In this document: positions 7,140-64,000 of the stretch, piece after piece
Layout: every line of letters begins with the position of its first letter
How positions within the stretch are numbered: the first letter of the stretch is position 1
Assembly: GCF_027111315.2 (NCBI RefSeq)
Contig: NZ_CP114289.2
Span: forward strand, 4,216,001 to 4,280,000
DNA: 64,000 nt
Direction of reading: 5' to 3'
From: Flavobacterium limnophilum
Lineage (GTDB): Bacteria; Bacteroidota; Bacteroidia; Flavobacteriales; Flavobacteriaceae
The notes under the pieces: model-generated
What the model saw: the letters and a program-made list of their open reading frames with translations, nothing else
What the model was told of the DNA's origin: nothing
Databases searched by the model: none
Program-made: the position numbers and the translations under genes

Positions 7140-9641
7140 ATGAATTTAAAGCAACAACGTAAACTATTTTTGGTTTTTCTTCTGATAGGAATGTTATTTT
7201 CAGCCAGTGCTGCTGAAATTTGGGTTTCGCCTAAAGGCAATGATGCAAATCAAGGAACAAAATCAAGTCCGGTGGCAACCGTTCAGATGGCGGTAAGAAA
7301 AGCCAGAGAACTGCGTCGCCTGAAAGATTCCTCCATAAAAGACGGTATCCATATTATTGTTATGGATGGAACTTATTATTTGAACGAGCCTTTATTTGTT
7401 AGACCCGAAGATTCCGGAACGGCCGAAAGTCCAACCACTATTGAAGCTGATGCCAATGCCAAACCAATCTTAAGCGGTGGATTCGAAATAAAAAACTGGA
7501 AAAAATCTACTATTGCGATAAACGGAAAAAAAGGAATCGTTTGGGAAGCCAATGCACCTGAAAAAGCAGGAGAAATCATCAATTACCGACAATTATGGGT
7601 CAACGGAAAAAAAGCTGTTAGAGCCAAAAGCACTGCCGGAACCAAAATGGATAGAATTCTGTCATGGGATGCTGCCACCGAAACCTGCTGGATTCCTTTC
7701 AAAGACAAATCCGTTAAGTTTGAGCCGGGAATGGAAATGTTCATCGTGCAATGGTGGGCGATTGCTAATTTGCGAATTAAAAATATTGAAGTTGTAAAAG
7801 ACAGCGCCAGACTTTCATTCGAACAACCTGAAAGTCGCATCCAAAGCGAACATCCTTGGCCGGCACCTTGGATTTCTAAAAACAACGGAAACTCGGCTTT
7901 CTATTTAAACAACGGAATTTCGATGCTGAACGAACCTGGAGAATGGTTTTTGGACAGAAAAAAAGCCAAAATTTATTATATTCCAAGAACGGGAGAAAAT
8001 TTGGCTACAGCCAAAGTATCAGTTCCAGTTTTGGAAAATTTGGTAAAAGTAGAAGGAACTTTGGATTCGCCAGTGCTTCATTTTAATTTCAAGGGAATTT
8101 CGTTTCAGTACAGCAATTGGCTTCGTCCTTCTCAGCAAGGTCACGTCCCGTTGCAAGCCGGAATGTATTTGTTGGATGCCTATAAATTGAAAACGCCCGG
8201 AACTCCAAATCAAGCGAGTTTAGAAAATCAAGGTTGGGTAGGCCGACCAAGAGCCGCCGTTGAAGTAAATTATGCCAACAATACTTTGTTCGAATCCTGC
8301 ACTTTTGAACATTTATCTTCCACGGGATTGGATTTGCATAGAGGAACCAATCATAATACCATCAAAGGAAATTTATTCAAGGACATTGGTGGAAACGGAA
8401 TCAATTTGGGTGTTTTTTCCGAAGAACCTTTCGAGGCGCATTTGCCTTATACCGTGAAAGACGACCGAATCGTTTGCTCGGATGAATTGGTTGCCGATAA
8501 TCTGATTACCAATGTAGCCAACGAAGATTGGGGATGTCTGGGAATCGCGGCTGGTTTTATAAAAAATATCACCATCGAACACAACGAAATTTCGGATGTG
8601 GCTTACAGCGGCATTTCGATGGGCTGGGGCTGGACACACACCGAAAATGTGATGAAAAACAACAAAATTATAGCGAACAAAATTCATCATTATGCGAAAA
8701 ATCTGCATGATGTGGCCGGAATTTACACGCTTTCATCGCAGCCAGTAAGCAGGATAGAAGAAAATTACATCGACAAAGTTTACAATAGTCCGTATGCACA
8801 CGACCCGTTTTTGTGGTTGTACTTGTACACTGATGAAGGAACGCAGGGTTTTACCATCAAAAATAACTGGATTCCGATTCAAAAAACATTGAAAAACCAT
8901 AATGGTCCAGTTGGAAATGTTTGGCAAGACAATTATGCGTTTGTAGATTCTAAAATCAAGGAAAATGCCGGTATTAGAACTCCATACAGCAATTTATTGG
9001 CTAAAGAAGTGGTTGTTGACGAAGCTTGGGGTTTGCAAGAAATGCCAAAATCGGTTGCCATTGAAGTAATCGGAAAAGATTTGGATGTCGAAAAAATTAA
9101 ATCGACCATAAAAGGTTTCCGAATCGTGGGCGAAGAATTGTACCAATGGGAAAATCATTTGATGATTTACGGTTTGATGAACCAACCGGAAAGAACCAAA
9201 AGAAAACTGGCTTTGGCCTTTCCAGCATTGGAAATTAAAATCTATGAAAACCCGGTTTACGATTTCCAAAATTTCGAAAGATGCAAGGATGTAAAAGTAG
9301 CATCCGAATGGGAAAATATCGTTTTGACTGCCAATTTGGTCGAAGACGAAAAAATGCAAAAAGAATATATTGATTATCACAAAACTCAATTCGAAAAATG
9401 GCCGGAAATTGCCAAAGGATTCTGTAATGCCGATTTCCAACAATTGCAGGTTTTCAAAAACGGAAGACAATTAATGTTGGTCATCAGTATTCCAAAAGGC
9501 GAAAGCTTGGATAAATTGAATCCAAAAACCACCGAAAATAATCCACGTGTTGACGATTGGAATGCTTTAATGAAAAAATATCAAACGGGAATTGAAGGAA
9601 CAAAACCCGGAGAAGTTTGGATGTTTTTGAAGAAGATTTAG
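7140..9641 (+). CDS. Secreted right-handed beta-helix glycoside hydrolase, GH141-like
   Basis: The protein has 833 residues from the ATG at 7140; an in-frame TTG at 7113 is less likely. A signal peptide ends near SASA (residue 24). The mature N-terminus (EIWVSPKGNDANQGTKSSP, then DGTYYLNEPLFVRPEDSGT) is the usual opening of parallel beta-helix enzymes such as GH141. A strand-rich middle region (about 340-600) has repeated Asn-rich turns typical of beta-helix coils. The segment around RQLWVNGKKAVRA also fits. GH141 includes an enzyme removing a fucose derivative from rhamnogalacturonan II and a xylanase. Its final 200 or so residues form an additional region not recognised. It is the first gene of the plus-strand locus and diverges from the AraC gene. 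Confidence 0.65.
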   Translation: MNLKQQRKLFLVFLLIGMLFSASAAEIWVSPKGNDANQGTKSSPVATVQMAVRKARELRRLKDSSIKDGIHIIVMDGTYYLNEPLFVRPEDSGTAESPTTIEADANAKPILSGGFEIKNWKKSTIAINGKKGIVWEANAPEKAGEIINYRQLWVNGKKAVRAKSTAGTKMDRILSWDAATETCWIPFKDKSVKFEPGMEMFIVQWWAIANLRIKNIEVVKDSARLSFEQPESRIQSEHPWPAPWISKNNGNSAFYLNNGISMLNEPGEWFLDRKKAKIYYIPRTGENLATAKVSVPVLENLVKVEGTLDSPVLHFNFKGISFQYSNWLRPSQQGHVPLQAGMYLLDAYKLKTPGTPNQASLENQGWVGRPRAAVEVNYANNTLFESCTFEHLSSTGLDLHRGTNHNTIKGNLFKDIGGNGINLGVFSEEPFEAHLPYTVKDDRIVCSDELVADNLITNVANEDWGCLGIAAGFIKNITIEHNEISDVAYSGISMGWGWTHTENVMKNNKIIANKIHHYAKNLHDVAGIYTLSSQPVSRIEENYIDKVYNSPYAHDPFLWLYLYTDEGTQGFTIKNNWIPIQKTLKNHNGPVGNVWQDNYAFVDSKIKENAGIRTPYSNLLAKEVVVDEAWGLQEMPKSVAIEVIGKDLDVEKIKSTIKGFRIVGEELYQWENHLMIYGLMNQPERTKRKLALAFPALEIKIYENPVYDFQNFERCKDVKVASEWENIVLTANLVEDEKMQKEYIDYHKTQFEKWPEIAKGFCNADFQQLQVFKNGRQLMLVISIPKGESLDKLNPKTTENNPRVDDWNALMKKYQTGIEGTKPGEVWMFLKKI

Positions 9642-9700
9642 GAGAGAAAAGAATAAGGAAAATAGAGAAAGTATAATGCCAATACTTAATGTCTTTCAAT

Positions 9701-9742
9701 CCAGTTTCGGCTCCCTCTCCTTCGGAGAGGGCTGGGGTGAGG
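9701..9742 (+). repeat. 42-base GAGAGGG hairpin repeat, copy 1 of 6
   Basis: The unit reads CCAGTTTCGG, then a hairpin CCCTCTCCTTCGGAGAGGG, then CTGGGGTGAGG. This copy has a TTCG loop; the others have TTTG. It ends 12 bases before the ATG of the oxidoreductase gene. Confidence 0.9.
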
Positions 9743-9754
9743 AAAAATAAATAA

Positions 9755-10819
9755 ATGTTAAAAATAGCCATTTTAGGTCTCGGAGAGGGACGCAGTACGA
9801 TGTCAGCCGCTTTGGCAAGTTCCAAATTGGAGTTGGTAAAAATATGTGACAGGAATGAGGAATTGTGCCAACAAAGAGCAAAGGAGTTTGATTTTCATTC
9901 ACACACAACCAATTATGATGATTTATTGAATGACAGTGCAATCGATATCATCGCTATTTATACGCCAGACCATTTGCACGCCGAGCACGTAAAACAAGCT
10001 TTGTTGGCCGGAAAACACGTGGTTTGCACCAAGCCTTTCATTGACGATCTTTCGGATGCCGCAGCATTATTGGAACTGAGCGAGAAAACAGGAAAGAAAG
10101 TTTTCATCGGCCAAAGTTCTCGATTTTTCGAACCGGCAAAAAGACAAAGAGCCGATTTTGAAGTCGGATTAATAGGAGATTTAATTACGATTGAGTCGCA
10201 TTACCACGCAGATCACCATTGGTTTTTGGAAAAAGAATGGTCGTTGTTGCAATCATTCAAATGGTTGTATGGCGGTTTAAGTCATCCCGTGGATTTCATC
10301 AGATGGTATTTACCTGATATTGAAGAAGTTATGGGTTATGGAATGATCAGCAGCAACGGAAGCGTGGCAGGTTTGAAAAACGAAGACACTATGCACTTTA
10401 TTTTCAAAGCCACCGATGGAAGAATTGCCAGAGTGAGCGGTGTTTATACTTCGCCAACACAGCCGACACAAAGGGATAGTGGGATGAGCGTAATTTTACG
10501 AGCAACCGAAGGAGCCAGCCAGGCCGATTATCATGAATTGCGTTATGCCATTACTGACAAAACCGGCGAAGAAAAAGTCGTGACTTGGGGCGACAGTACT
10601 TTAAAACATTATTTCCGTTTTGAAGGACAAAGCCATCATGCGGGAGAATATCAAAATTATTTGGAATATTTCGTGGATAGTATCGAACAAGATTTTATGG
10701 CTTATCCGGATATGAAAGAAGGGATTGGAACCGTGGCATTATTACAGGCAATGGACAAATCTTTACAAACCGGAATGCCAGTAAAAATTGCTGATGTTCT
10801 TAACGAATACGGATTATGA
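9755..10819 (+). CDS. Gfo/Idh/MocA family NAD(P)-dependent oxidoreductase
   Basis: The 354-residue protein opens with a Rossmann fold (MLKIAILGLGEGRS, glycine-rich loop at residues 8-12) and carries KPFIDD, in which Lys is the usual active-site residue of the EKP motif. A C-terminal alpha/beta substrate domain follows. No signal peptide is present, so it is cytoplasmic. The family oxidises or reduces sugars and sugar acids. The stop overlaps the symporter start (ATGA), so translation of the two is coupled and they probably act on the same imported sugar. The exact substrate is not known. Confidence 0.9.
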   Translation: MLKIAILGLGEGRSTMSAALASSKLELVKICDRNEELCQQRAKEFDFHSHTTNYDDLLNDSAIDIIAIYTPDHLHAEHVKQALLAGKHVVCTKPFIDDLSDAAALLELSEKTGKKVFIGQSSRFFEPAKRQRADFEVGLIGDLITIESHYHADHHWFLEKEWSLLQSFKWLYGGLSHPVDFIRWYLPDIEEVMGYGMISSNGSVAGLKNEDTMHFIFKATDGRIARVSGVYTSPTQPTQRDSGMSVILRATEGASQADYHELRYAITDKTGEEKVVTWGDSTLKHYFRFEGQSHHAGEYQNYLEYFVDSIEQDFMAYPDMKEGIGTVALLQAMDKSLQTGMPVKIADVLNEYGL

Positions 10820-12396
10820 ACAGTATCTACGATAAATTAACCGCCTTGGATTTTATAATTGTTGCCATTTACTTGGTGATATTATTGGTCATTGGTTATG
10901 TCGTGAGCGTGAAGCAAAGCAAGAAGAACGAAACGCTTTTTATGGCCGGAAATTCCTTGAATTGGTACAACATCGGGTTCAATATGTGGGGGACAAATGT
11001 TGGGCCTTCGTCTTTATTGGCTTTTGCCAGTATTGGTTATGCAACGGGAATCGTGGCGGGAAATTTCGAATGGTATGCCTTTGTTTTTTTATTGCTTTTG
11101 GCAATGGTTTTTGCTCCAAAATATATTGCCAGCAAGGTTAGCACGATGCCCGAATATATGGGAAAACGCTATGGTGACAGTACGCAAACCATTTTGGCTT
11201 GGTATGCAATGGTCAAGATTTTGGTAAGTTGGTTGTCCTTGGGATTGTTTAGCGGAGGAATTTTGGTACGCCAAATTTTAGGAATTCCGATGTGGCAAAG
11301 CGTGACGGTTTTAGTCATTTTTTCAGGGATTTTTACTTTCGCTGGAGGTTTGAAAGCCATTGCCAAAGTGAATGTTTTTCAGATGATTTTATTAATTGTC
11401 GTTTCGCTTACACTTTCTTATTTAGGTTTGCAAAAAGTGGGTGGAATCGAAGCCTTGATTGCCAAAACACCTTCCAATTTCTGGAATTTGGTTCAACCGG
11501 CAAACGACGCACATTATCCTTGGCCTGCCATTTTATTGGGGTATCCCGTAGCCGCAGTGGCTTTCTTTTGCACGGACCAATCGATGGTCCAGAGTGTTTT
11601 GGGGGCAAAGAATTTGGAACAAGGACAATTGGGAGTGAACTTCATCGGTTGGCTGAAAGTATTGGCGTTGCCATTGTTTATTTTACCAGGAATTCTGTGT
11701 TCCGTTTTGTATCCAGAGTTAGGCGAAAATTCCGATTTGGCTTATATGACGATGGTAACCAATTTATTTCCAAGTGGAATGAACGGTTTGGTAATTTGTG
11801 TGATGATTGCTGTATTGGTGGCAACGATTGGCTCATCTTTGAATGCCTTGAGCACGGTTTACACCAATGATATTTACGTGAAGAAAATCAATCCAGCGGC
11901 GACGATTAAAGAGCAAATAAAAATGGGTCGCATTACCGTTGCGGCAGGTTGCGTGTTTGCAATCCTTATTGCGATTGCGATAGACAACATCAAAGGTCAA
12001 AATTTATTCAACATTTTTCAGGCGGTTTTGGGCTTTTTGGCACCTTCTTTGTCGGTGGTGTTTTTGTTGAGTATTTTTTGGAAACGTACGACCAAAAAAG
12101 CGGTAAATGGGATTTTATCTTGGGGTTCGGCTTTTAGTTTGTTTATTGGAGTATTGTATTTGTGGATTTTTCCTGCGGATGTTTACACCGCTTGGCCCCA
12201 TTTCTTGTTGATTTCCTTTTACATTTTTGCAGTGTTAATGTTGGCAGCCATTATCATTTCATTGGTAGATAAAAGTCCAGAAACCAATTTCGTGAGCGAA
12301 ACCGATGTGCCAAAAACTAGCAAAAAAGTGAAAATTTTATTCGCCTTGCTTGGACTAACTATTTTGAGTTTATACCTCATTTTTAATTTTAATTAA
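10816..12396 (+). CDS. Sodium:solute symporter family transporter
   Basis: This 526-residue membrane protein has about 13 or 14 hydrophobic segments and the SSS-family pattern (LDFIIVAIYLVILLVIGY near the start, MPEYMGKRYGDS near residue 115, CTDQSMVQSVLGAKN near 255). It imports a small solute with Na+ across the inner membrane. The start overlaps the preceding oxidoreductase gene by four bases, and the rhamnosidase gene begins one base after its stop. That context suggests a monosaccharide or uronate released by the locus as the cargo; this is inference. Confidence 0.93.
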   Translation: MNSIYDKLTALDFIIVAIYLVILLVIGYVVSVKQSKKNETLFMAGNSLNWYNIGFNMWGTNVGPSSLLAFASIGYATGIVAGNFEWYAFVFLLLLAMVFAPKYIASKVSTMPEYMGKRYGDSTQTILAWYAMVKILVSWLSLGLFSGGILVRQILGIPMWQSVTVLVIFSGIFTFAGGLKAIAKVNVFQMILLIVVSLTLSYLGLQKVGGIEALIAKTPSNFWNLVQPANDAHYPWPAILLGYPVAAVAFFCTDQSMVQSVLGAKNLEQGQLGVNFIGWLKVLALPLFILPGILCSVLYPELGENSDLAYMTMVTNLFPSGMNGLVICVMIAVLVATIGSSLNALSTVYTNDIYVKKINPAATIKEQIKMGRITVAAGCVFAILIAIAIDNIKGQNLFNIFQAVLGFLAPSLSVVFLLSIFWKRTTKKAVNGILSWGSAFSLFIGVLYLWIFPADVYTAWPHFLLISFYIFAVLMLAAIIISLVDKSPETNFVSETDVPKTSKKVKILFALLGLTILSLYLIFNFN

Positions 12397-12397
12397 C

Positions 12398-14581
12398 ATG
12401 AAAATATTTTCTTCTGTACGACAGAGTTTTAAAACTATTGTTTGCGTTGTTGCCTTATTCTTTTTGTCAGAAGCGGCTTCGGCTCAAACTTGGATTTGGT
12501 ATCCGGGCGATTTCGAAGTGTGGTTAAGCAATAAAATGCAGGTAAGACGTACAGAACGTGAAGCGGTATTTCCACCGCTTTGGCAATATTACAGTCCTTA
12601 TGCCTTGGTAACTTTTCAGTCAGAAGTGGATATTCCAGAAGCTGATGAAGTGAAAATCTACTCGGAAGGAACTTTTCAATTGCTTTTAGATGGAGTTCAG
12701 GTTTACGGCCAACCAAAATCAATAAAAATTCCTGCCGGGAAACACAAAATTTCCTTTAAAGTATATAATCAGGAAGTGTTGCCAGCTATTTACATTGCCG
12801 GTAAGCATGTTAAATCTGACGCATCTTGGAAGGTTACCAATGAAGATAAACTTTGGATTGACGAAAATGGAAAAGCACAACAATCTGGCACACCTTGGGT
12901 ACCGGTTGGCTCTTGGAATTTTAATTCACCAGAGAGTAAACCTTCTGGTTTTAAACTAACAACTACACCTTGGAACGCAAAAAAAACAGAAAAAATAGGA
13001 GATGGTAAGTTGGTGGATTTTGGTAAAGAAACTTTTGGTTATATTAAAATTCACGGTTTAAAAGGAAAAGGCAAAGTGGCACTTTATTATGGTGAATCTC
13101 GTGAGGAAGCTATAGATACTGCCCGATGTGAAACATTAGATCACTTATATTTTGATGGAAAACAGCCTGAAACCTACACACACAATGGATCAAAAGCATT
13201 CCGCTATGTTTGGGTACAAGCAGATCCAACGGTAAAATATGATTCTATTTCGATGCTTTATGAGTATTTGTCATTGGACTATCGTGGGGCTTTCAAATCT
13301 TCTGACCAAGAATTGAATAAAATTTGGGAGGTGTCGGCTTATACAATGCATTTGACCTCTCGCGAATTTTTTATAGACGGAATTAAACGCGACCGTTGGG
13401 TCTGGTCTGGCGACGCGTATCAAAGTTATTTAATGAATTATTATTTATTCTTTGATTCGGCTTCCGTAGAACGAACGCTGTTGGCGCTGCGTGGCAAAGA
13501 ACCTGTAACGGCTCACGTTAATATCATAATGGATTATTCGCTGTATTGGTTTGTGGGTGTTTACGATTACTATTTACACACGGGCGACACGAAATTTATC
13601 AAAACTTTTTATCCACGAATGAAATCATTGATGGAATTCTGCTTGGAAAGAAGAAACAAAAACGGATTCCTGGAACCTTTAGAAGGTGATTGGGTTTTTA
13701 TTGATTGGGCGAACGGATTACCAAAAACTGGCGAGGTTAGTTTTGAGCAAATGCTTTTAGCGAGAAGTTTAGAAGCTATGGCTGTTAGTGCTGAAATTGC
13801 AGGTAAAAACGAAGACCAAAAACAATATCAAAAATTAGCTGCTGATTTAAAAACAAAATTATTTGATGTGTTTTGGGATAAGAAAGAAAACGTGATGAAG
13901 CATCAGCGTATTGATGGTAAAATGCAAGATATTGTAACGAGATACGCTAATATGTTCGGTATTTTTTTCAATTATTTTAATGAAGAACAAAAACAAAGTA
14001 TAAAAAAGAAGGTTTTGCTCAATAAAGATATTCTTCAAATCACAACACCATATATGCGTTTTTATGAGTTGGAAGCTTTGTGTGCGATGGGCGAGCAAAA
14101 TTATGTTTTGAAAGAAATGAAAGACTATTGGGGCGGAATGTTAAAAGAAGGCGCAACTTCTTTCTGGGAAGAATACAATCCAAACAAAAAAGGAACGGAA
14201 CATTTAGCGATGTACGGACGCCCTTATGGAAAAAGCCTTTGCCACGCCTGGGGTTCTAGTCCAATTTATTTGTTAGGGAAATATTATTTAGGCGTGAAAC
14301 CAACTGCTCCGGGTTATTCCGAATATGAAATCAAACCGAATTTAGGTGGTTTGGAATGGATGGAAGGAAAAGTGCCAACACCAAAAGGCGAAGTAAGCGT
14401 GTATTGCAGTACTAAAGAAATCAAAGTAAAAGCTGCCGAAGGAGAAGGAAAATTGATTTTCGAAAGTCAATCAAAACCAAAAACCAACTCGGGAACAATT
14501 ACGGAATTGTCTAAAAACAAATACCAATTGACGGTTCAACCGAATGTGGAATATCAAATAAGTTATAAAGCAGTTAAATAA
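12398..14581 (+). CDS. Alpha-L-rhamnosidase, GH78 family
   Basis: This 727-residue protein has a signal peptide ending at ASAQ. It has N-terminal beta-sandwich regions (about 30-270) and an (alpha/alpha)6 barrel (about 290-640) with the GH78 hallmark FFIDGIKRDRWVWSGD near residue 325, which contains the proposed acidic residues. A C-terminal beta domain closes it. Family members hydrolyse terminal alpha-L-rhamnose from rhamnogalacturonans and glycosides. It starts one base after the symporter stop, and its stop overlaps the next ATG (TAATG), so the group 9755-16239 is translationally coupled. Confidence 0.88.
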   Translation: MKIFSSVRQSFKTIVCVVALFFLSEAASAQTWIWYPGDFEVWLSNKMQVRRTEREAVFPPLWQYYSPYALVTFQSEVDIPEADEVKIYSEGTFQLLLDGVQVYGQPKSIKIPAGKHKISFKVYNQEVLPAIYIAGKHVKSDASWKVTNEDKLWIDENGKAQQSGTPWVPVGSWNFNSPESKPSGFKLTTTPWNAKKTEKIGDGKLVDFGKETFGYIKIHGLKGKGKVALYYGESREEAIDTARCETLDHLYFDGKQPETYTHNGSKAFRYVWVQADPTVKYDSISMLYEYLSLDYRGAFKSSDQELNKIWEVSAYTMHLTSREFFIDGIKRDRWVWSGDAYQSYLMNYYLFFDSASVERTLLALRGKEPVTAHVNIIMDYSLYWFVGVYDYYLHTGDTKFIKTFYPRMKSLMEFCLERRNKNGFLEPLEGDWVFIDWANGLPKTGEVSFEQMLLARSLEAMAVSAEIAGKNEDQKQYQKLAADLKTKLFDVFWDKKENVMKHQRIDGKMQDIVTRYANMFGIFFNYFNEEQKQSIKKKVLLNKDILQITTPYMRFYELEALCAMGEQNYVLKEMKDYWGGMLKEGATSFWEEYNPNKKGTEHLAMYGRPYGKSLCHAWGSSPIYLLGKYYLGVKPTAPGYSEYEIKPNLGGLEWMEGKVPTPKGEVSVYCSTKEIKVKAAEGEGKLIFESQSKPKTNSGTITELSKNKYQLTVQPNVEYQISYKAVK

Positions 14582-16239
14582 TGATTCAAAAATCTAAACA
14601 TATTTATTGCCTATTCCTGATTTTTGTGGGCTTTTCAGTTTTGGCTCAAAATACCAGTTGGCAAGCCGCTCCTTTTGAAGTGGTGAATTCGAATTACAAA
14701 ACTTTCAAAACGACTCAATATGCACAGGTATTTTCGGGCAGTAAACATAATATTGTTCGATTGGCTCCTGAATTGCAAGGATTAACAGGTCTCGAACTTC
14801 CATTAGAAAGTTATAAAAACGGAACGAATACCCCATTAAAACTAAAATTCAAGGAGCCAGTTCAAGTGCTTATTGGAATTTTTCAAGAAAAAAATAATTC
14901 AGATTACCGCCAATTAAACAATGCCAAATTGGTTCTCGAAAATGGAGTAACCATAACAGGTTTGCCTCCGGTTAATGTGTATGCAATTACTTTTCCAAAG
15001 GGAGCGCATATCATTAATCCAGAAGGAAAAGGGTTATTTGCCGTTTTGGGAGTTGTAAAAGCTTCCCAAAAATTGGAATTCAGAAACGCTGAACTTCCAG
15101 ACGGAAAATTATGGAATCCCACTTTTATCGTTGAAGGATTCTCGGATGAAAAACCACTTTTTGAAATTATCGGTGGAGAAAACAAACCCGTAATTGATGA
15201 AGGATTTCCCGGAACCGAAGGAATTCAAGGTGGTTTTGAAGGAGGTCGTGTCGTAAAAGTCGGTAACACCTACCATATGTTTCCAACGGAGAGAGCGGGA
15301 GAAGTTGGTATAGAAATGTATTACGACCGTGTAAAAACCAAAATCGGACATTGGACAAGCAAGGATGCGATTCATTGGAAAAGAGAATCCACGATTTTGC
15401 AGGCAAGCGGAACATATGCAATTACCGAAGATGACAATCCGATGAACGATCGTCGTGCTGCGATTTGGTCGTATATGCCTGTTTTTAACGAAAAAGCAAA
15501 CAAATGGTATGGCTATTATTTGGCTTACACCGTTCACAAAGAAATCCAACCCAATCATTCTTTTGGGAGAATTTGGCGTTGTGAATCCGAAAAGGAAGGA
15601 ATTGCAGGAATTGCCGGCCCATACAAAGATACTGGTATAATTATTGAACCGGGATTGGACTCAGAACCTTGGGAAGGACGTCAAGGCGTGGCTTCATTTT
15701 TTCCGTATAAAGTCGGCGATAAATATTTTGGATTTTATAGTGGAGCATTTCCGTTTCAATCTTGGGCAGATTATCCAAAGAAATCCAGTAAAGGCTGGTT
15801 TGTTGGTTTGGCAGAATCGAATAGTTTGGAAGGACCTTGGTCACGAATAAAAGACGGTAGCAATCCTATCAAAACGATGCATCCATTTTTTGTGGAGAAT
15901 CCAATTGTCAGCCAACTTCCAAACGGAATGTATATAGCAGTTTTTGATGGAGGCCCAGACGGTTGGGGACATCATTTACCTAATATGATGGCGTATTCGT
16001 TATCCAAAGATGGTCATAAATGGAGTGAGGCGCATTATTTGCCAATAGAAACCAAGGTCAATAAATGGTGGGATATTATGAGAACGCCGCTTTGTCTGAT
16101 TCCCGAAGGAAACGATGTTTACACTATCGTTTATAATGCCATTGATCTGAAAAAAAGATTTCATCCTACGGGAATGGTAAAGTTGAAATTGAATAAGGAA
16201 GTAATGGAATCTCGATTGAAGGAATTGGAAAAAGAATAA
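14581..16239 (+). CDS. Secreted beta-propeller glycoside hydrolase-like protein, family unclear
   Basis: The 552-residue product has a signal peptide ending at VLAQ. An N-terminal beta domain (about 20-180) is followed by a five-bladed propeller-like region (about 200-540). That region shows GH43/GH32-clan phrases such as GGRVVKVGNTYHMFPTE, WTSKDAIHWKRE and YGYYLAYTVH, each blade carrying a 'substrate-in, Trp-strand' pattern. Conserved acidic residues sit in DDNPMNDRR and in EPWEGRQG. I could not place it in a CAZy family; GH43, GH117 or GH143 are possibilities. It overlaps the GH78 stop by one base, so it probably acts on the same side chain. Confidence 0.7.
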   Translation: MIQKSKHIYCLFLIFVGFSVLAQNTSWQAAPFEVVNSNYKTFKTTQYAQVFSGSKHNIVRLAPELQGLTGLELPLESYKNGTNTPLKLKFKEPVQVLIGIFQEKNNSDYRQLNNAKLVLENGVTITGLPPVNVYAITFPKGAHIINPEGKGLFAVLGVVKASQKLEFRNAELPDGKLWNPTFIVEGFSDEKPLFEIIGGENKPVIDEGFPGTEGIQGGFEGGRVVKVGNTYHMFPTERAGEVGIEMYYDRVKTKIGHWTSKDAIHWKRESTILQASGTYAITEDDNPMNDRRAAIWSYMPVFNEKANKWYGYYLAYTVHKEIQPNHSFGRIWRCESEKEGIAGIAGPYKDTGIIIEPGLDSEPWEGRQGVASFFPYKVGDKYFGFYSGAFPFQSWADYPKKSSKGWFVGLAESNSLEGPWSRIKDGSNPIKTMHPFFVENPIVSQLPNGMYIAVFDGGPDGWGHHLPNMMAYSLSKDGHKWSEAHYLPIETKVNKWWDIMRTPLCLIPEGNDVYTIVYNAIDLKKRFHPTGMVKLKLNKEVMESRLKELEKE

Positions 16240-16254
16240 TTTAGGGCTGTTTTT

Positions 16255-16394
16255 GAATTGCCTCCAGCTTTAGCTGGAGGGAAAAAATGAAATAGATTTA
16301 TGGGCTGGGCTTTAGCCAAAATTAATTTTTATTTGGCTAAAGCCAATGAGCAAAATACTTGATTTGTACCTCCAGCTAAAGCTGGAGGCAATTC
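16255..16394 (+). repeat. Mirror-hairpin (BIME-like) element, copy A of 4
   Basis: The 140-base unit is built as H1-H2...H2'-H1'. H1 is CCTCCAGCTTTAGCTGGAGG, H2 contains GGCTTTAGCC, H2' is TTGGCTAAAGCCAA and H1' is CCTCCAGCTAAAGCTGGAGG. Each is a hairpin around GCTttAGC or GCTaaAGC. GAATTG and CAATTC bound the ends as inverted repeats. It begins 15 bases after a stop codon. Confidence 0.92.
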
Positions 16395-16414
16395 AAAAAA
16401 GTAATGGTACTCCG

Positions 16415-16458
16415 CAAAGTCTCCGACTTTGAGGATGTGTTTCTCAGTCTTTGACTGA
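16415..16458 (+). repeat. Two small back-to-back hairpins
   Basis: CAAAGTC-tcc-GACTTTG (16415-16431) is followed by TCAGTC-ttt-GACTGA (16444-16458). They fill the rest of the 253-base junction between the two propeller genes. There is no T tract, so termination is not claimed. Confidence 0.6.
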
Positions 16459-16492
16459 CCAAAGAAGAATGTAATAAAATTGAAGGAAATAA

Positions 16493-17623: not shown

Positions 17624-17652
17624 GTATTAAGAATTAAGACGTTGGAAGTTTT

Positions 17653-17694
17653 CCAGTTTCGACTCCCTCTCCTTTGGAGAGGGTCGGGGTGAGG
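17653..17694 (+). repeat. 42-base GAGAGGG hairpin repeat, copy 2 of 6
   Basis: It is the same unit as at 9701 with two changes (TTTCGACTCC, and GGTCGGGG in place of GCTGGGG). The hairpin CCCTCTCCTTTGGAGAGGG is intact. It ends 27 bases before the GH2 ATG, in the same orientation as the gene. Confidence 0.9.
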
Positions 17695-17709
17695 TTTTTA
17701 TAAGTATAA

Positions 17710-21084
<3,375 letters not shown>

Positions 21085-21098
21085 TTTTTATAAGTACA

Positions 21099-21170
21099 GT
21101 TTGTCATTCCGTACGAATCTCTGCAACTGGAGCAACTAACGTGAGATTCCTTCGGAATGACAAAGCAAAC
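21099..21170 (+). repeat. GTCATTCCG dispersed palindromic repeat, copy 1 of 2
   Basis: The element opens with GTTTGTCATTCCGTA and closes with CGGAATGACAAAG. Its ends pair, and its middle shares GAGCAACTAACGTGAGATT with the copy at 63492. It lies between GH2 and GH106 and ends 17 bases before the GH106 start. Confidence 0.8.
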
Positions 21171-21187
21171 GGATAATAACAACAATA

Positions 21188-24586: not shown

Positions 24587-24594
24587 TTTTATCT

Positions 24595-24746
24595 GAATTG
24601 CCTCCAGCTTTAGCTGAATTGCCTCCAGCTTTAGCTGGAGGGGTACATAATAATTGTATTTGTTGGCTTTAGCCAAATAACTATAAATTTTGGCTATAGC
24701 CAATTGCACATAATTTAAAACCCTCCAGCTAAAGCTGGAGGCAATT
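24595..24746 (+). repeat. Mirror-hairpin (BIME-like) element, copy B of 4, with duplicated first arm
   Basis: It has the same H1-H2...H2'-H1' plan as copy A. The first arm GAATTGCCTCCAGCTTTAGCT occurs twice in direct tandem (24595 and 24616), the first time truncated. H2' has one change (TTTTGGCTATAGCCAA). It starts nine bases after the GH106 stop. Confidence 0.92.
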
Positions 24747-24785
24747 GAAAAAGCAGAAAACATAGATTAAAATAAAAAAGAAGAA

Positions 24786-26219: not shown

Positions 26220-26225
26220 TTTTAT

Positions 26226-26356
26226 GAATTGCCTCCAGCTTTAGCTGGAGGGAACAAAAATGACAGCATTTATTGGCTTTAGCCAAAATTTATAGTTATT
26301 TGGCTAAAGCCAATTGAACATAATTTTAATCCCTCCAGCTAAAGCTGGAGGCAATT
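26226..26356 (+). repeat. Mirror-hairpin (BIME-like) element, copy C of 4
   Basis: This 131-base unit has the same four-hairpin plan as copy A. It starts six bases after the SASA stop and ends 12 bases before the next ATG. It is the most complete inner pair (TTGGCTTTAGCCAA and TTGGCTAAAGCCAA). Confidence 0.92.
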
Positions 26357-26368
26357 GAAAAGATTGTA

Positions 26369-28699: not shown

Positions 28700-28740
28700 G
28701 TTTGCCATTTTTGTGTGGTTAGACCAATAAAAAAAATAAA

Positions 28741-28794
28741 CCATTAAGAAAATTAAGGTTCATTAAGGCTTAATTCTCTTAATTTTCTTAATGG
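28741..28794 (+). terminator. Long perfect hairpin after the DUF5703 gene
   Basis: CCATTAAGAAAATTAAG (28741-28757) pairs without mismatch with CTTAATTTTCTTAATGG (28778-28794) across a 20-base loop. No T tract follows (TAAAAAAAC), so it may be an mRNA-stabilising or dispersed repeat and not a true terminator. Confidence 0.5.
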
Positions 28795-28812
28795 TAAAAA
28801 AACAACACTGTT

Positions 28813-28854
28813 CCAGTTTCGGCTCCCTCTCCTTTGGAGAGGGCTGGGGTGAGG
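28813..28854 (+). repeat. 42-base GAGAGGG hairpin repeat, copy 3 of 6
   Basis: This is an intact consensus copy (CCAGTTTCGG, hairpin CCCTCTCCTTTGGAGAGGG, CTGGGGTGAGG), co-directional with the next gene. It ends 40 bases before the PL1 ATG at 28895. Confidence 0.92.
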
Positions 28855-28894
28855 TTCAATAGTAATAGAGAAAAAATAAATTTAAAATAAAAAG

Positions 28895-31351: not shown

Positions 31352-31360
31352 TTCCAATTT

Positions 31361-31397
31361 TTAACCCTGTCAGGGTTAAAAACCCTGACAGGGTTAA
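31361..31397 (+). repeat. CCCTGTCAGGG double palindrome, copy 1 of 2
   Basis: AACCCTGTCAGGGTT and AACCCTGACAGGGTT are themselves palindromic and are also inverted copies of each other around TAAA. It begins 9 bases after the PL1 stop and ends 20 bases before the GH127 ATG. The second copy is at 54331. Confidence 0.85.
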
Positions 31398-31417
31398 ACT
31401 TAAAACAAAATTTTAAA

Positions 31418-33439: not shown

Positions 33440-33454
33440 TATAATTTAAAAAAT

Positions 33455-34447
33455 ATGAAAAAAATTGTAACCTTATTTTTGATCTTTAGCTCCATTGTTT
33501 TATCTGCTCAAACTACTGATAATCGCTTTGAATTGACCGTTGCGCAGGACGGTTCTGGAGATTTTAAAACCATACAAGAAGCCATCAACAAAGTCAGAGA
33601 CCACGCCGAATTTAGAGTTGTAATTACTGTAAAGTCGGGTGTTTATAACGAGAAAGTAGTTATTCCAGCTTTCAAAAGAAATATTACTTTGAAAGGGTTA
33701 GACAGAGAGAAAACCGTTATTTCGTATAATGACTATTCTGGAAAACCATTCCGTGGAATTGATGTTACGGGTGATGCTAAATTCAGTACTTACACCTCAT
33801 ACACTTTGTTGATTCAAGGAAATGATTGCACAATTGAGAATTTGACCGTCGAAAACACGGCAGGAAGAATAGGTCAGGCAGTAGCTTTGCACACAGAAGG
33901 GGACAGAGTTTCAGTGACAAACTGCTCCATTTTAGGAAATCAAGATACTTTGTATTTGGCCAAAGGCGGAACCAGAAATTATTTCGAAAACTGCTACATC
34001 AACGGAACTACCGATTTTATTTTCGGTGCAGCAACTGCTTATTTTTATAATTGTACTATCGAAAGTTTGACCAATTCCTATGTTACGGCAGCATCAACCA
34101 CCAAGCAAGATGGGTATGGATTTGTTTTCGTGGATTGCAAACTTATTGCAAAAGATGAAACCGTAAACAAAGTTTTCTTGGGAAGACCTTGGCGACCTTA
34201 TGCACAAACTGTTTTTATCAATACAGAAATGGGAGCACATATTGTTCCGGAAGGTTGGAATCCGTGGAAAGGCGACAAGAATTTTCCAGACAAGGAAAAA
34301 ACCGTGTTTTATGCTGAATATGGAAGTAAAGGTGCAGGAGCAAAAGATTTAACGGCTAGAGCTTCTTGGTCACACCAATTAAAAAAAGCCGATCTTAAAA
34401 AATACGATTTGCTTAAAGTGTTGAATGGTTGGAATCCTAAATTATAG
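33455..34447 (+). CDS. Pectin methylesterase, CE8
   Basis: This 330-residue secreted protein has a signal peptide ending at LSAQ and a right-handed beta-helix. It opens VAQDGSGDFKTIQEAI as CE8 proteins do. Catalytic residues are visible: Gln163-Asp164 in NQDTLY, Asp187 in GTTDFIFG and Arg244 in LGRPWRPYA. It removes methyl esters from homogalacturonan, which exposes substrate for the PL1 lyases and the GH28 encoded nearby. It lies 15 bases after GH127 and six bases before the CE12 gene, so these genes form a compact sub-operon. Confidence 0.95.
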   Translation: MKKIVTLFLIFSSIVLSAQTTDNRFELTVAQDGSGDFKTIQEAINKVRDHAEFRVVITVKSGVYNEKVVIPAFKRNITLKGLDREKTVISYNDYSGKPFRGIDVTGDAKFSTYTSYTLLIQGNDCTIENLTVENTAGRIGQAVALHTEGDRVSVTNCSILGNQDTLYLAKGGTRNYFENCYINGTTDFIFGAATAYFYNCTIESLTNSYVTAASTTKQDGYGFVFVDCKLIAKDETVNKVFLGRPWRPYAQTVFINTEMGAHIVPEGWNPWKGDKNFPDKEKTVFYAEYGSKGAGAKDLTARASWSHQLKKADLKKYDLLKVLNGWNPKL

Positions 34448-34453
34448 ATTAAC

Positions 34454-35236: not shown

Positions 35237-35246
35237 AACATCTAAT

Positions 35247-36197: not shown

Positions 36198-37030
36198 TGA
36201 ATTGAAAATTCATTTTTGTCAAATGAGATGATTTTGACAGAAACAGCTCGATAATTACTCCAAAAAAACTCTCGAATCAGGGTTTTTACGATTCCGTTCA
36301 GCGACCAATTCTTGAGGCTGTAAAAAATGCTTTAATTGCTTGCTTAATCGTTAAAGCAAAACTGTAAGAATTTACTTTTTTAGCAAAAAAAAATGCTATT
36401 GAGAATGAATTTTAACACTTTTTAATTAATCAGAAATTACTATCTTGAAGTTGTGAATTGAGACGACATTTTTGTCTTTTTTTGAAATAGTTGTTTTTAA
36501 TTAATTATTTATTTAATTTTTTTTAATTTGCTGTAAATAAGTGTTTTGTATGTTTTTTTTTGGGTTGAATGAAATGTTTTAGAACAAAAAAGGCAAGATT
36601 ATAATGAAGAAAATTGATTTTGTTAATTTACTTTAATGATTTAGATTTAGCTTTTTCTATTGCCAAAAATGCATCTAAAAAATCATTTATTATCTGTTCT
36701 ATTATGATTTTTTTGTATTTACCTTAACAAAATTTGCAAATACTGACTTAAAATTAATTATAATTAGTATTTCCTCTATATTTTTTGTTAATTTTATTTT
36801 TGAGCTGTTTTTTTAATAATATGATTTATTTTTTGCTACTTTTATTTCATAAAAATACCGAACCAGCATAGTGCAGGATAGTTTCGATTAATTGACCTAA
36901 TAAATTTGGCTCAAATATGATAATTGTGTTTTTCACATTTATTTTTTTCGAAACAAATCCGAAGGGATGTTTAACCGGTTTTTATATTTTTACTAACTAA
37001 ACTAACTATTAATTTTAACTTAAAACACTT
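36198..37030 (+). other. 833-base gene-free AT-rich leader upstream of susC
   Basis: No credible coding frame is present. A short hairpin TGTCAAA...TTTGACA lies at 36217-36239 without a T tract. Exact TAnnTTTG boxes occur at 36795-36802 (TATTTTTG) and 36901-36908 (TAAATTTG), the latter leaving a leader of about 115 bases before the susC ATG. Neither has a good TTG at 19-21 bases upstream, so the promoter is probably activator-dependent. A small ACTAACTA direct repeat sits at about 36992-37008. The region is likely to contain the main promoter and regulator site of the import system, but no operator could be defined. Confidence 0.45.
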
Positions 37031-40297: not shown

Positions 40298-40323
40298 TTA
40301 GAGATCAATTAAAAATTAAAACT

Positions 40324-42342: not shown

Positions 42343-42448
42343 TAAATGTTAATTTTACAATTATTAATGATTATGGCATCATATTTGATTTTATCCCAAC
42401 GAAATCAAGGGTTCAGTTATCCAATTAATATTAATAATTAGTTATAAA

Positions 42449-42482
42449 AAATCACCTGTATTTCAAAAAATACAGGTGATTT
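42449..42482 (+). terminator. Strong hairpin terminator after susD
   Basis: A perfect 15-base-pair stem built on ATCACCTGTATTT/AAATACAGGTGAT encloses a four-base CAAA loop (42464-42467). It lies 107 bases after the susD stop and 33 bases before the next ATG. The T tract is short (TTTAG), so some read-through into the lyase genes is likely. It may set the high susCD to low enzyme ratio. Confidence 0.7.
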
Positions 42483-42515
42483 AGTTATAGCACAAAACGA
42501 AAATCAAAAATTACC

Positions 42516-44219: not shown

Positions 44220-44270
44220 GGTTTTAACCGCAAAGACACAAGGTCGCAAAGAAATAAGTATAACAATAAT

Positions 44271-44309
44271 CAAGTCTCGGCTCCTCCTTTGGAGAGGGCT
44301 GGGGTGAGG
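44271..44309 (+). repeat. GAGAGGG hairpin repeat, copy 4 of 6 (shortened)
   Basis: This copy reads AAGTCTCGGCTCCTCCTTTGG onward and lacks three bases of the left stem. GAGAGGGCTGGGGTGAGG is intact. It ends 30 bases before the DUF3826 ATG and is preceded at 44225-44251 by a degenerate AACCGCAAAGACACAAGG repeat. Confidence 0.85.
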
Positions 44310-44339
44310 TTTTATACTTTCAATCATAAAATTTTTAAG

Positions 44340-45011: not shown

Positions 45012-45016
45012 TTTAC

Positions 45017-45077
45017 TAGTGATTAGCTTTTAGTAATTAGCTCTCAATATCAGCTATTCACTAAAGTCTAATCACTA
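45017..45077 (+). repeat. Inverted repeat TAGTGATTAG...CTAATCACTA
   Basis: Two perfect 10-base arms (45017-45026 and 45068-45077) are separated by 41 bases. They lie in the 91-base junction between DUF3826 and the second PL1 gene. The purpose is unknown. Confidence 0.55.
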
Positions 45078-45102
45078 AATATAACTCTCAATAAGGATTC
45101 CA

Positions 45103-46809: not shown

Positions 46810-46823
46810 AATTTTAAATTTAT

Positions 46824-46852
46824 ACCTGGAAGGTTTCTAAAACCGGTCAGGT
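46824..46852 (+). repeat. Degenerate ACCTG...CAGGT palindrome
   Basis: ACCTGGAAGGTTT and AACCGGTCAGGT pair imperfectly around CTAA. It resembles a decayed relative of the double palindromes at 31361 and 54331. It lies in the 73-base junction before the next gene. Confidence 0.5.
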
Positions 46853-46882
46853 CTAAATTATAAACTCAAATAATATTTTAAA

Positions 46883-50041: not shown

Positions 50042-50117
50042 TTACAGATTTTAAGACTATCGGTGAAAATCCGTTTAATCCGTAAAATCTGTGGCCTAAA
50101 ATAAATATTAACAATAT

Positions 50118-50159
50118 CCACTTTCGGCTCCCTCTCCTTTGGAGAGGGCTGGGCTGAGG
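50118..50159 (+). repeat. 42-base GAGAGGG hairpin repeat, copy 5 of 6
   Basis: It carries two single-base changes from consensus (CCACTTTCGG, CTGGGCTGAGG). It ends 17 bases before the GH140-like ATG and is co-directional. Bases 50042-50117 hold a degenerate sequence of the 'AAATCCGTTTAATCCGTAAAATCTGTGG' type, which also recurs weakly elsewhere. Confidence 0.9.
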
Positions 50160-50176
50160 TTTTAAAAACAAACAAA

Positions 50177-51580: not shown

Positions 51581-51616
51581 TTTGTGAAAATTTGTGAAAT
51601 TTGTGGTGAAAAAACA
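51581..51616 (+). repeat. ATTTGTG-type degenerate repeat
   Basis: ATTTGTGAAAATTTGTG, AATTTGTGGT and AAAAAA form a unit that recurs at 56331 and, more degenerate, at 60881. It sits right after a stop codon. The remaining bases to 51705 hold no other recognised feature. Confidence 0.6.
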
Positions 51617-51705
51617 ATCTGTGAATCTGTGGCAAAGCAAGTTAGCGTTGCTTTGTCAAAGTCCGATCACTTTCTTTAAATCTGCGTACAAAAAATAAAA
51701 ACACT

Positions 51706-53280: not shown

Positions 53281-53292
53281 AAAACGAGTTGT

Positions 53293-53321
53293 CCTGCAAG
53301 GTCTTTTTTTGACCTTGTAGG
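53293..53321 (+). repeat. CCTGCAAGGTC hairpin
   Basis: CCTGCAAGGTC (53293-53303) pairs with GACCTTGTAGG (53311-53321) across seven T, with one G-T pair. It follows the GH28 stop by 12 bases. It could act as a stability element. Confidence 0.6.
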
Positions 53322-53348
53322 TATTTCAATAGATAAAATAACAACTCT

Positions 53349-53390
53349 CCAGTTTCGGCTCCCTCTCCTTTGGAGAGGGTTGGGGTGAGG
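53349..53390 (+). repeat. 42-base GAGAGGG hairpin repeat, copy 6 of 6
   Basis: This is a near-consensus copy (CTGGGGTGAGG reads TTGGGGTGAGG) that ends 12 bases before the GH43 ATG. That spacing is the same as in copy 1. Confidence 0.92.
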
Positions 53391-53402
53391 TAAAATACAA
53401 CA

Positions 53403-54320: not shown

Positions 54321-54330
54321 TGGATTTACT

Positions 54331-54362
54331 ACCCTGTCAGGGTTCAAAACCCTGACAGGGTT
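54331..54362 (+). repeat. CCCTGTCAGGG double palindrome, copy 2 of 2
   Basis: ACCCTGTCAGGGTT and AACCCTGACAGGGTT face each other around CAA. It starts ten bases after the GH43 stop and ends 26 bases before the next ATG. It is the same element as at 31361. Confidence 0.85.
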
Positions 54363-54388
54363 GGCAAGTCTAAAAATAATAAAGAACA

Positions 54389-56263: not shown

Positions 56264-56330
56264 AAAAAATATAACCGCAAATTCCACAAATTCCGCAAAT
56301 CTTTAACTGAAAGAAAAAGAATAATTTGTG

Positions 56331-56358
56331 AAAATTTGTGCAATTTGTGGTAAAAAAA
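56331..56358 (+). repeat. ATTTGTG-type degenerate repeat, second copy
   Basis: ATAATTTGTGAAAATTTGTG, AATTTGTGG and TAAAAAAA match 51579-51616 closely. Upstream, 56275-56302 carries CCGCAAATTCCACAAATTCC, roughly the inverse complement. It ends eight bases before the GTG start of GH78. Confidence 0.6.
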
Positions 56359-56365
56359 ATAAAGC

Positions 56366-59158: not shown

Positions 59159-59162
59159 AATT

Positions 59163-59294
59163 GAATTGCCTCCAGCTTTAGCTGGAGGAACAAGGAATGA
59201 ATATCAGATTGGCTTTAGCCAAATTAGATGTGATTTTGGCTAAAGCCATTTAAGGAATTTCTATTTATCACTCCAGCTAAAGCTGGAGGCAATT
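59163..59294 (+). repeat. Mirror-hairpin (BIME-like) element, copy D of 4
   Basis: This 132-base unit has the four-hairpin plan. Its first arm is CCTCCAGCTTTAGCTGGAGG, and its last arm has lost one base of the left stem (CTCCAGCTAAAGCTGGAGG). It starts four bases after the GH78 stop and ends 21 bases before the next ATG. Confidence 0.92.
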
Positions 59295-59315
59295 GAAAAA
59301 AATGTTAACACACAA

Positions 59316-60743: not shown

Positions 60744-60754
60744 TAGTTGGGCGT

Positions 60755-60871
60755 GACCCAATTTGAAAAAGGGGGCAACTCTCGTAACCGTTCAGTAGCC
60801 CCCTTTCCCAAATCGGGTCGGGCTATCCGCGCTACTTCGGTAGCTTGCTTCTATCCCTCACGCGCTCTGGT
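60755..60871 (-). repeat. Long structured intergenic element, likely minus-oriented
   Basis: A 22-base stem joins 60755-60776 and 60798-60819 across a 21-base loop. On the plus strand three positions are A-C mismatches; on the minus strand the same positions become G-U pairs, so the folded RNA is better on the minus strand. It is followed by GGGCTATCCGCGCTACTTCGG and related sequence to about 60871. I recall similar 'AAGCCCGACCC' elements dispersed in Flavobacteriia. Confidence 0.6.
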
Positions 60872-60880
60872 AACTTGAAG

Positions 60881-60916
60881 AAATTTGCGCTAATTTGTGG
60901 AATTTGTGGTTAAAAA
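60881..60916 (+). repeat. ATTTGTG-type degenerate repeat, third copy
   Basis: AATTTGCGCTAATTTGTGG, AATTTGTGG and TTAAAAAAA resemble the units at 51581 and 56331. It ends 34 bases before the GH95 ATG. Confidence 0.5.
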
Positions 60917-60950
60917 AAATAATTAGGGTCTTACCTAAAAAATATAAAAT

Positions 60951-63416: not shown

Positions 63417-63424
63417 GAGAGGGA

Positions 63425-63479
63425 CACGAATTTCACGAATTAACACGAATTCGTTGTTTTGAAAATTTCACGAATTCCT
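63425..63479 (+). repeat. CACGAATT short direct repeats
   Basis: CACGAATT occurs four times (about 63426, 63436, 63447 and 63470) in the sequence after the GH95 stop. Similar 'TTCACGAATT' runs are frequent in this group of bacteria. Confidence 0.5.
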
Positions 63480-63491
63480 GTAATAACTCTA

Positions 63492-63600
63492 GTTTGTCAT
63501 TCCGTAGGAATCTCAAACAACTTGAGCAACTAACGTGAGATTGCTTCGCCAATTCACTATCGCTCGTGTCCTACGGAATGACAAAGTTTACGGACAATAA
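63492..63600 (+). repeat. GTCATTCCG dispersed palindromic repeat, copy 2 of 2
   Basis: It begins GTTTGTCATTCCGTAGGAATCTC and ends GTCCTACGGAATGACAAAG, with arms that pair. The middle shares GAGCAACTAACGTGAGATT with the copy at 21099 and has an extra 38 or so bases. It ends 19 bases before the last gene's ATG. Confidence 0.8.
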
Positions 63601-63619
63601 TTAAAATAATAATTTGAAT

Positions 63620-64000
63620 ATGTTACAGAATTTTAAATACAAAATAATCGCTTTCGTAATCCTGATGGCAGCTTTCAGTAGTTGTAAATCGGGTGCGGGG
63701 CATTCTAAAAAAGGAACTTCAGCTGTTTTGAAAGCCAATAATTTTAAGCATTATGTGGATTATTTCAACACGATGGAAGACGAGAATCTGAAATTTGCGA
63801 TTCCGAATGACAGTGCGTGGACGTGGATGGAAAAGAATGTTCCGTTGTTTGAATGTCCACAGCAAAATTTTGAGGAGATTTATTATTATCGTTGGTGGAC
63901 GGCTCGAAAACACATCAAAAAAACGCCACTTGGTTTCGGAATTACCGAGTTTTTGGTGCAACGTTCGTATGCCGATAAATACAATTTGATTGCCTGTGCC
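63620..64000 (+). CDS. Lipoprotein glycosidase, MGH1/GH63-like (3' end outside window)
   Basis: The visible 127 residues begin with a lipoprotein signal (lipobox FSSC, Cys22) and continue NDSAWTWMEKNVPLFECPQQNFEEIYYYRWWTARKHIKKTPLGFGITEFL. This is the start of a family I recall as MGH1-like (alpha/alpha)6 glycosidase, with an aromatic-rich EIYYYRWW entry to the barrel. The catalytic part lies beyond the window. It is co-directional with the preceding pectin genes, so the locus continues to the right. Confidence 0.75.
   Translation, partial: MLQNFKYKIIAFVILMAAFSSCKSGAGHSKKGTSAVLKANNFKHYVDYFNTMEDENLKFAIPNDSAWTWMEKNVPLFECPQQNFEEIYYYRWWTARKHIKKTPLGFGITEFLVQRSYADKYNLIACA

Follow-up and report, generated by a model that had tools for sequence, protein, structure and literature searches.

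The stretch analysed here (the window; 64,000 nucleotides, bases 4216001-4280000 of a 4.5 Mb Flavobacterium genome) carries a large pectin utilisation cluster in which most of the gene junctions are occupied by palindromic or dispersed repeats. The locus raises the question of how these repeats came to fill its junctions, and whether they serve the transcript. The best-supported answer, which we consider probable from the comparisons of sequence given below, is that they are mobile DNA of the repetitive extragenic palindrome (REP) type accumulating at the 3' ends of genes, inside what is likely to be an old and conserved utilisation cluster of the rhamnogalacturonan II type.

Twenty-nine plus-strand genes were called, from 7191 to beyond 63614, and the cluster, of single orientation over at least 56 kb, runs to the right end of the window. 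Its glycosidases belong to glycoside hydrolase (GH) families GH141, GH78, GH106, GH2, GH127, GH140, GH28, GH43 and GH95. Esterases, one pectinesterase, a BT_1020-like protein and one SusC/SusD pair are also encoded, a gene set which we take to be that used for rhamnogalacturonan II.

Repeats at the gene junctions

The 29 genes are separated by 28 junctions, of which 21 are at least 60 nucleotides (nt) long. The initial annotation had counted repeats in 19 of the 28, and this number was borne out, with 17 firm cases and two weak ones (45012 and 46810). The nine repeat-free junctions are also those named there, namely three overlapping junctions at 9755-16239, three tight ones at 31418-36197, the SusC leader, the SusC-SusD gap and the SusD terminator. 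Junction ends were taken from alignments and a purpose-written gene caller. One point is corrected: the gene that follows 44219 starts, as called, at 44340, which leaves a shortened F1 copy in the gap.

Five families were defined by regular expressions. F1 is a CTCCCTCTCC-TTY-GGAGAGGG hairpin with the tail GGGGTGAGG, present in six locus copies of which one is shortened. F2 forms composites, four of them in the locus, in which CCTCCAGC palindromes (two inverted REPs) surround an inner GGCTTTAGCC pair. F3 is the palindrome CCCTGTCAGGG..CCCTGACAGGG, F4 the inverted repeat GTCATTCC..GGAATGACA, and F5 consists of tandem 8/9-mer units, AATTTGTGG or AATCTGTGG, often as inverted pairs. The F4 expression is loose (it matches 13 of 400 coding pieces), and its label at 26220 is false. 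The locus also holds other repeats beyond these five, and relatives of the locus families occur elsewhere in the genome. At gathering scores, Rfam gave zero matches within the window. The repeat-bearing junctions and three repeat-free gaps are as follows (strand is given where assigned).

9642..9754, plus strand: F1 element junction (repeat families and junction reading, exact genome copies)
16240..16492: F2 composite (two inverted REPs, inner GGCTTTAGCC pair) and a further hairpin; fold of -101 kcal/mol
17624..17721, plus strand: F1 element junction (repeat families, exact copies)
21085..21187: F4 inverted repeat (GTCATTCC..GGAATGACA) junction; the orthologous junction fits the F4 pattern in 13 of 16 relatives
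24587..24785: F2 composite junction; F2 here in 8 of 16 relatives by eye, one decayed
26220..26368: F2 composite junction (repeat families, F2 pattern)
28700..28894, plus strand: F1 element and a second inverted repeat; empty (7-16 nt) in 16 of 17 relatives
31352..31417: F3 palindrome (CCCTGTCAGGG..CCCTGACAGGG) junction (repeat families)
36198..37030, plus strand: SusC leader, no repeat family (junction reading, family patterns)
40298..40323, plus strand: SusC-SusD gap; below 60 nt in 57 of 57 relatives
42343..42515, plus strand: gap after SusD, hairpin terminator-like by eye; strong stem in 48 of 57 relatives, no dispersed family
44220..44339, plus strand: shortened F1 copy and CGCAAAGAC-type repeats (repeat families)
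45012..45102: weak GTGATTAG-type inverted repeat, below the 40-bit threshold
46810..46882: weak degenerate F3-like repeat, below the 40-bit threshold
50042..50176, plus strand: F1 element and F5 (tandem 8/9-mer) repeat (repeat families, patterns)
51581..51705: F5 tandem AATTTGTGG-type repeat (repeat families, patterns)
53281..53402, plus strand: F1 element and CCTGCAAGGTC palindrome (repeat families, junction reading)
54321..54388: F3 palindrome junction (repeat families)
56264..56365: F5 inverted tandem repeats (repeat families, patterns)
59159..59315: F2 composite junction (repeat families, F2 pattern)
60744..60950: GGGCGTGACCC/TCGGGCT repeat and F5 (repeat families, junction reading)
63417..63613: F4 inverted repeat and F5 repeat (repeat families, patterns)

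Excess over the rest of the genome

Repeat content was also assessed de novo. Each junction was searched with BLAST against the intergenic DNA of a systematic genome sample (40 stretches of 20 kb, 800 kb), matches of at least 40 bits being counted and those within 65 kb excluded. Repeats were thereby detected in 16 of 21 locus junctions, 79 of 246 junctions of the sample and 13 of 62 junctions of other SusD operons. The 16 include the AT-rich SusC leader (833 nt), which is not counted as a repeat; the junctions at 31352 (39.7 bits), 45012, 46810 and 54321 fall below the threshold. Among junctions of 60-260 nt the figures are 15/20, 55/194 and 4/44, respectively. When the 65 kb exclusion is lifted, 18/21 locus and 80/246 sample junctions carry repeats, against 1/21 and 7/246 after shuffling. 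The locus is therefore richer than random long junctions, so that the comparison by which the initial annotation would have judged it ordinary came out in its favour, even though about one third of ordinary long junctions carry repeats too. As other SusD operons are poor in repeats by the length-matched count, the status of polysaccharide locus alone gives no explanation. Single families are likewise concentrated here, the locus holding 5 of the 21 exact genome copies of F1 (binomial 5e-6) and 4 of the 9 F2 composites (3e-6).

The excess recurs in two of three other Flavobacterium genomes, compared over the 3' half of the locus and with background stretches near the orthologous loci (L185, L186, L214-L216) left out. 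In F. hungaricum (G003, L051) 8 of 10 locus junctions bear repeats as against 26 of 151 in the background (p 6e-5), and in G001 (L062) 6 of 9 as against 20 of 101 (p 0.005). A second repeat-dense stretch of the chromosome, L120 (G000:C1:1587540-1607539), has repeats in 9 of 12 co-directional junctions; it contains many small genes, and its repeat types were not seen in the window.

F2 and the RAYT gene

A profile search of the chromosome gave four Y1_Tnp matches. One of them, at 2096117-2096458 in the stretch L023 (PF01797, E 2.7e-27), is the gene of a REP-associated tyrosine transposase (RAYT). Its left side carries TTGAATTGCCTCC..GGAGG..GGCTTTAGCC and its right side GGCTAAAG..CCTCCAGCTAAAGCT.GAGGCAATTGAA, the right F2 end having a one-base gap. 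The same parts are found in the same order in every F2 junction element, where the gene is missing, so that RAYT locus and junction elements share their ends. F2 sites number 45 genome-wide with up to two mismatches, and 0 were found with a reversed-pattern control. Nine paired composites were read from the site list; in the four of the locus the two inverted REPs lie 100-108 nt apart, and the junctions carrying them fold on the sense strand with z below -10 (12 shuffles each). F2 is thus palindromic, extragenic and present in many copies, it flanks a Y1 (HUH) transposase gene, and its inverted REP pair forms a hairpin. A different palindrome family surrounds the Y1_Tnp genes of L022 and L024, and this family recurs at the GH106|esterase junction of relatives L256 and L264.

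Tandem F2 arrays with a spacing of about 84 nt lie just upstream of the RAYT gene (L023:644-1270), and a second one about 6 kb further upstream (G000:C1:2088770-2090214). Each of the nine composites (G000:C1:780942, 812640, 3894664, 3916172, 3933091 and four in the window) adjoins at least one carbohydrate-active gene, some of the matches being weak. In the control of ten drawn junctions, 10 of the 20 neighbouring genes were examined and two glycosidases were among them. A general tie between F2 and carbohydrate genes was rejected, because in the genome G050 F2 has other neighbours too, among them an M1 peptidase and a Gfo/Idh gene. The G050 F2 regions among the matches listed (15, with 10 neighbour proteins scanned) comprise nine convergent and six co-directional gaps.

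Orientation of F1

The 21 exact copies of F1 lie on the plus strand over 3.58-4.5-1.32 Mb and on the minus strand over 1.83-3.43 Mb, and in 21 of 21 cases this agrees with the replichore deduced from GC skew. The skew of 57 stretches, from which the replichores were derived, puts their boundaries at about 1.55 and 3.45-3.72 Mb. Ten copies point the same way as the called genes (five of these in the locus), 7 are opposed to them and 4 are mixed. With all copies fitting the replichore and 7 of 21 opposed to transcription, the replication strand predicts F1 orientation better than transcription does. In this respect F1 resembles IS200/IS605-type insertion sequences (IS), whose single-strand insertion follows replication. 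Local spreading of F1 is not decided by sequence identity, which is 0.877 among locus copies, 0.823 between locus and outside copies and 0.801 among outside copies.

Gene order and junction history in relatives

A search baited with the DUF6298 protein gave 59 loci, two of which (L100, L103) are fragments and were counted only at the junctions they cover. The order from SusC and SusD to GH78 is kept in 57 relatives with few exceptions: L073 and L095 are without g45103, L101 is without GH28, L092 carries a g42516-like gene in addition, and six relatives show no g59316 within the stretch. By record title, 47 of the 57 belong to a Flavobacterium group and 10 do not. Over the nine junctions from g42516|DUF3826 to GH78|g59316, a length of at least 60 nt was found in 361 of 419 cases in the Flavobacterium group as against 12 of 83 in the ten others, and the SusC-SusD gap reaches it in 0 of 57. 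A strong stem is present in 112 of 150 sampled filled junctions of relatives, and in 4 of 150 after shuffling. For the 5' half, 18 of 101 genomes (own included) match at E 1e-100, which gives 17 relatives, and all 17 share the order GH2-GH106-esterase-DUF5703-g28895-GH127.

The initial annotation had proposed alignment of orthologous loci as a check, and this indeed showed single junctions to be filled in some loci and empty in others while the flanking genes stay unchanged. At DUF5703|g28895, 16 of 17 relatives have a gap of 7-16 nt, the remaining one has 150 nt including an F1-like insert, and the window has 195 nt; at GH127|pectin methylesterase (PME) the window has 15 nt and 14 relatives have 51-954 nt. 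On these sequence comparisons the gene order is older than the repeats, which arrived later.

Some of the insertions are themselves probably old, judging from F2 at GH106|esterase (8 of 16 relatives by eye; 9 by pattern, of which L264 is a false label), where spacers are common to several species, and from the F4 pattern at GH2|GH106 (13 of 16). Other repeats, as read from orthologous junctions, are replaced: among 38 filled GH28|GH43 junctions, F3 occurs in 15 and F5 in 14, never both. Nesting is also observed: outer arms of the CCACAGATTAAAA..TTTTAATCTGTGG type, similar to one another, enclose either F2 (L250, L252, L258, L260) or a GTCACCCTGAGC palindrome (L253, L255, L262). The family classification and the G-U counts given below exclude one compact Flavobacterium assembly, L266.

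The relatives offered some observations on the genes themselves. Sequence identity of SusC (34-62%) and SusD (32-71%) is usually lower than that of the surrounding enzymes (mostly 60-97%), as though relatives L047-L105 had exchanged the transporter pair within a fixed operon. The genes at 42516-44219 and 45103-46809 are paralogous (68-76% DNA identity in stretches), one of them without a Pfam match; of the 57 larger relative loci, 55 have both. Pfam matches are also lacking for the locus proteins of 28895-31351 (818 amino acids) and 14581-16239 (552 amino acids), the former having an ortholog in 17 of 17 relatives with the 5' half.

Mobile repeats as the probable explanation, and the points against it

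Several REP-type families of mobile palindromes would, on the reading we prefer, have invaded the translationally uncoupled junctions one by one, recurrently and in several species. The F2 copies would be gene-less derivatives of the element carrying the RAYT (an IS200-like HUH/Y1 transposase) of the same chromosome, which presumably moved them. Insertions may survive where the hairpin sits just after a stop codon and at least about 20 nt before the next start, where it would do the mRNA no harm or bring it a slight benefit, and those at coupled junctions would be purged. The evidence leans towards an operon that tolerates the repeats, with a possible use for them.

Several observations weigh against this explanation. 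No transposition event was seen. F2 does not have the GT[AG]G foot of canonical REPs (TGAATTG precedes CCTCC in its left REPs), and it was therefore classed as REP-like of an atypical type rather than as a canonical GTAG REP. Out to about 1.5 kb from the four Y1_Tnp genes no F1 motif was found, for which reason F1 was not assigned to the IS200/IS605 type, and for F3, F4 and F5 no transposase was sought beyond the Y1_Tnp family. The F1 replichores rest on skew and not on a mapped origin; 6 of the 57 stretches have the opposite skew sign (572450, 800475, 1923204, 2058183, 3273248, 3323000), two F1 copies (3.58 and 3.71 Mb) lie in the uncertain boundary zone, and 5 of the 21 are inside a called reading frame. 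In F. fluvii (G002, L098) the excess is not significant (2 of 8 locus junctions, 15 of 106 in the background), and the Flavobacterium relatives L063, L071 and L073 are compact at several junctions that others fill. Mobility alone also does not explain why the locus exceeds other SusD operons.

Folding of the junctions and alternative explanations

The initial annotation had suggested RNA punctuation that sets the mRNA stability or processing of individual genes. In a form of this in which the hairpins are selected and mobile repeats serve as freely replaced raw material, we regard it as possible, though on the unlikely side. Median fold z is -4.7 at the locus and -5.6 in 150 sampled junctions of relatives, as against -3.0 in other repeat-bearing and -1.8 in repeat-free co-directional junctions, and -4.6 in repeat-free convergent regions (12 shuffles with a floor on the spread; 70 repeat-free junctions sampled, divergent ones left out). 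The sense strand folds more strongly than the antisense in the sampled relatives (-5.6 vs -4.1), the difference not being significant in the window. Across species, different palindromes occupy the same junctions, and imperfect stems of relatives at the locus prefer sense-strand G-U over A-C (44 vs 14 clusters; background 41 vs 34; 13 of the 16 junctions showing a difference), counted with junctions over 450 nt left out and among related species, which are not independent. The contrast with the background gives Fisher values of 0.018 at 0.75 clustering, 0.022 at 0.65 and 0.17 at 0.85. This excess is a lead only, since leading-strand mutation bias may confound it: stems of the own genome show G-U:A-C ratios of 10:5 on the leading and 8:13 on the lagging strand, hinting at such an effect. 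Stems of the window alone have no G-U excess (2 vs 4), and whole predicted folds of relatives contain fewer G-U pairs in sense than in antisense (398 vs 542; repeat-free junctions 219 vs 363). A terminator role for the repeats was rejected, as intrinsic terminators (G+C stem with a sense-strand T-run) numbered 19, 12 and 14 against 19.0, 15.4 and 15.5 in shuffles, and sense-strand terminator-like sites in repeat junctions occur only at 26273 and 60831. A promoter scan of 22 gaps with the Bacteroidetes consensus, TTG-N17-23-TAnnTTTG, gave zero matches even in the SusC leader and is hence uninformative. The strong folding and the G-U excess in relatives thus stand on the side of punctuation; on the other side, the repeats are not terminator-like, F1 follows replication, the window is without G-U excess and compact relatives exist, with no insert at DUF5703|g28895 in 16 of 17 relatives or at GH127|PME in the window. 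A related and rather tentative idea, which we would also put well below an even chance, is that some operons select a hairpin at each uncoupled junction whichever family supplies it, the long rhamnogalacturonan II operon of Flavobacterium recruiting active mobile palindromes, replacing and nesting them. If so, junction structure would persist while the sequence family of the repeat turns over.

Neutral accumulation in any long co-directional junction, which would make the locus nothing special, appears doubtful: 79 of 246 ordinary junctions do bear repeats and the L120 stretch is dense, but the length-matched excess (15/20 vs 55/194) recurs in two of three other genomes. Very improbable is the other proposal of the initial annotation, that the repeats are scars of a gene-by-gene assembly of the locus. 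The esterase gene (24786-26219) does sit like a cassette between two similar F2 composites; its neighbours, however, are the same in 17 of 17 relatives, and F2 is found in the gap after it in 0 of 16 classified. The conserved order, common to 57 loci including compact ones and with the ten from outside Flavobacterium mostly compact, together with the filled and empty versions of one junction, makes assembly scars unlikely.

Comparison with known systems

REP elements and REPINs (inverted REP pairs forming hairpins) with their RAYT (TnpA_REP) are described as short extragenic palindromes in inverted pairs and many copies, flanking a Y1/HUH transposase gene (PMC3116915, PMC6006769). F2 agrees with them in its inverted palindrome pairs, its copy number and its position at a Y1/HUH gene of the same genome, as does the presence of another palindrome family at the L022 and L024 genes; it differs in the lack of a GT[AG]G foot, in its extra inner inverted repeat and in its concentration within one operon, where REPs are otherwise scattered. 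TnpA_REP subclass 2.6 is mostly from Bacteroidetes and has atypical flanking structures (PMC6006769); the likeness here lies in the Bacteroidota host and in atypical structures beside the gene with copies elsewhere. Intergenic REPs are described as mRNA stabilisers in E. coli (PMC12306157). The hairpins of the window likewise lie between genes of an apparently polycistronic operon; unlike the E. coli REPs, they belong to several unrelated families in one operon.

In titles and abstract openings, with subscription papers mostly outside that scope, no repeat-filled junctions in a polysaccharide locus were described. The rhamnogalacturonan II loci of Bacteroides presumably have GH141, GH106, GH78, GH127, GH140, GH28, BT_1020-like and SusC/SusD genes in common with the window, where, unlike in those loci, one unidirectional cluster of at least 56 kb has filled junctions. 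The many natural comparisons with and without repeats, the flanking genes being constant, would allow a direct test of whether such hairpins matter to mRNA. Whereas REP-type repeats are usually described as scattered, here one conserved operon is filled in many species, partly by different families.

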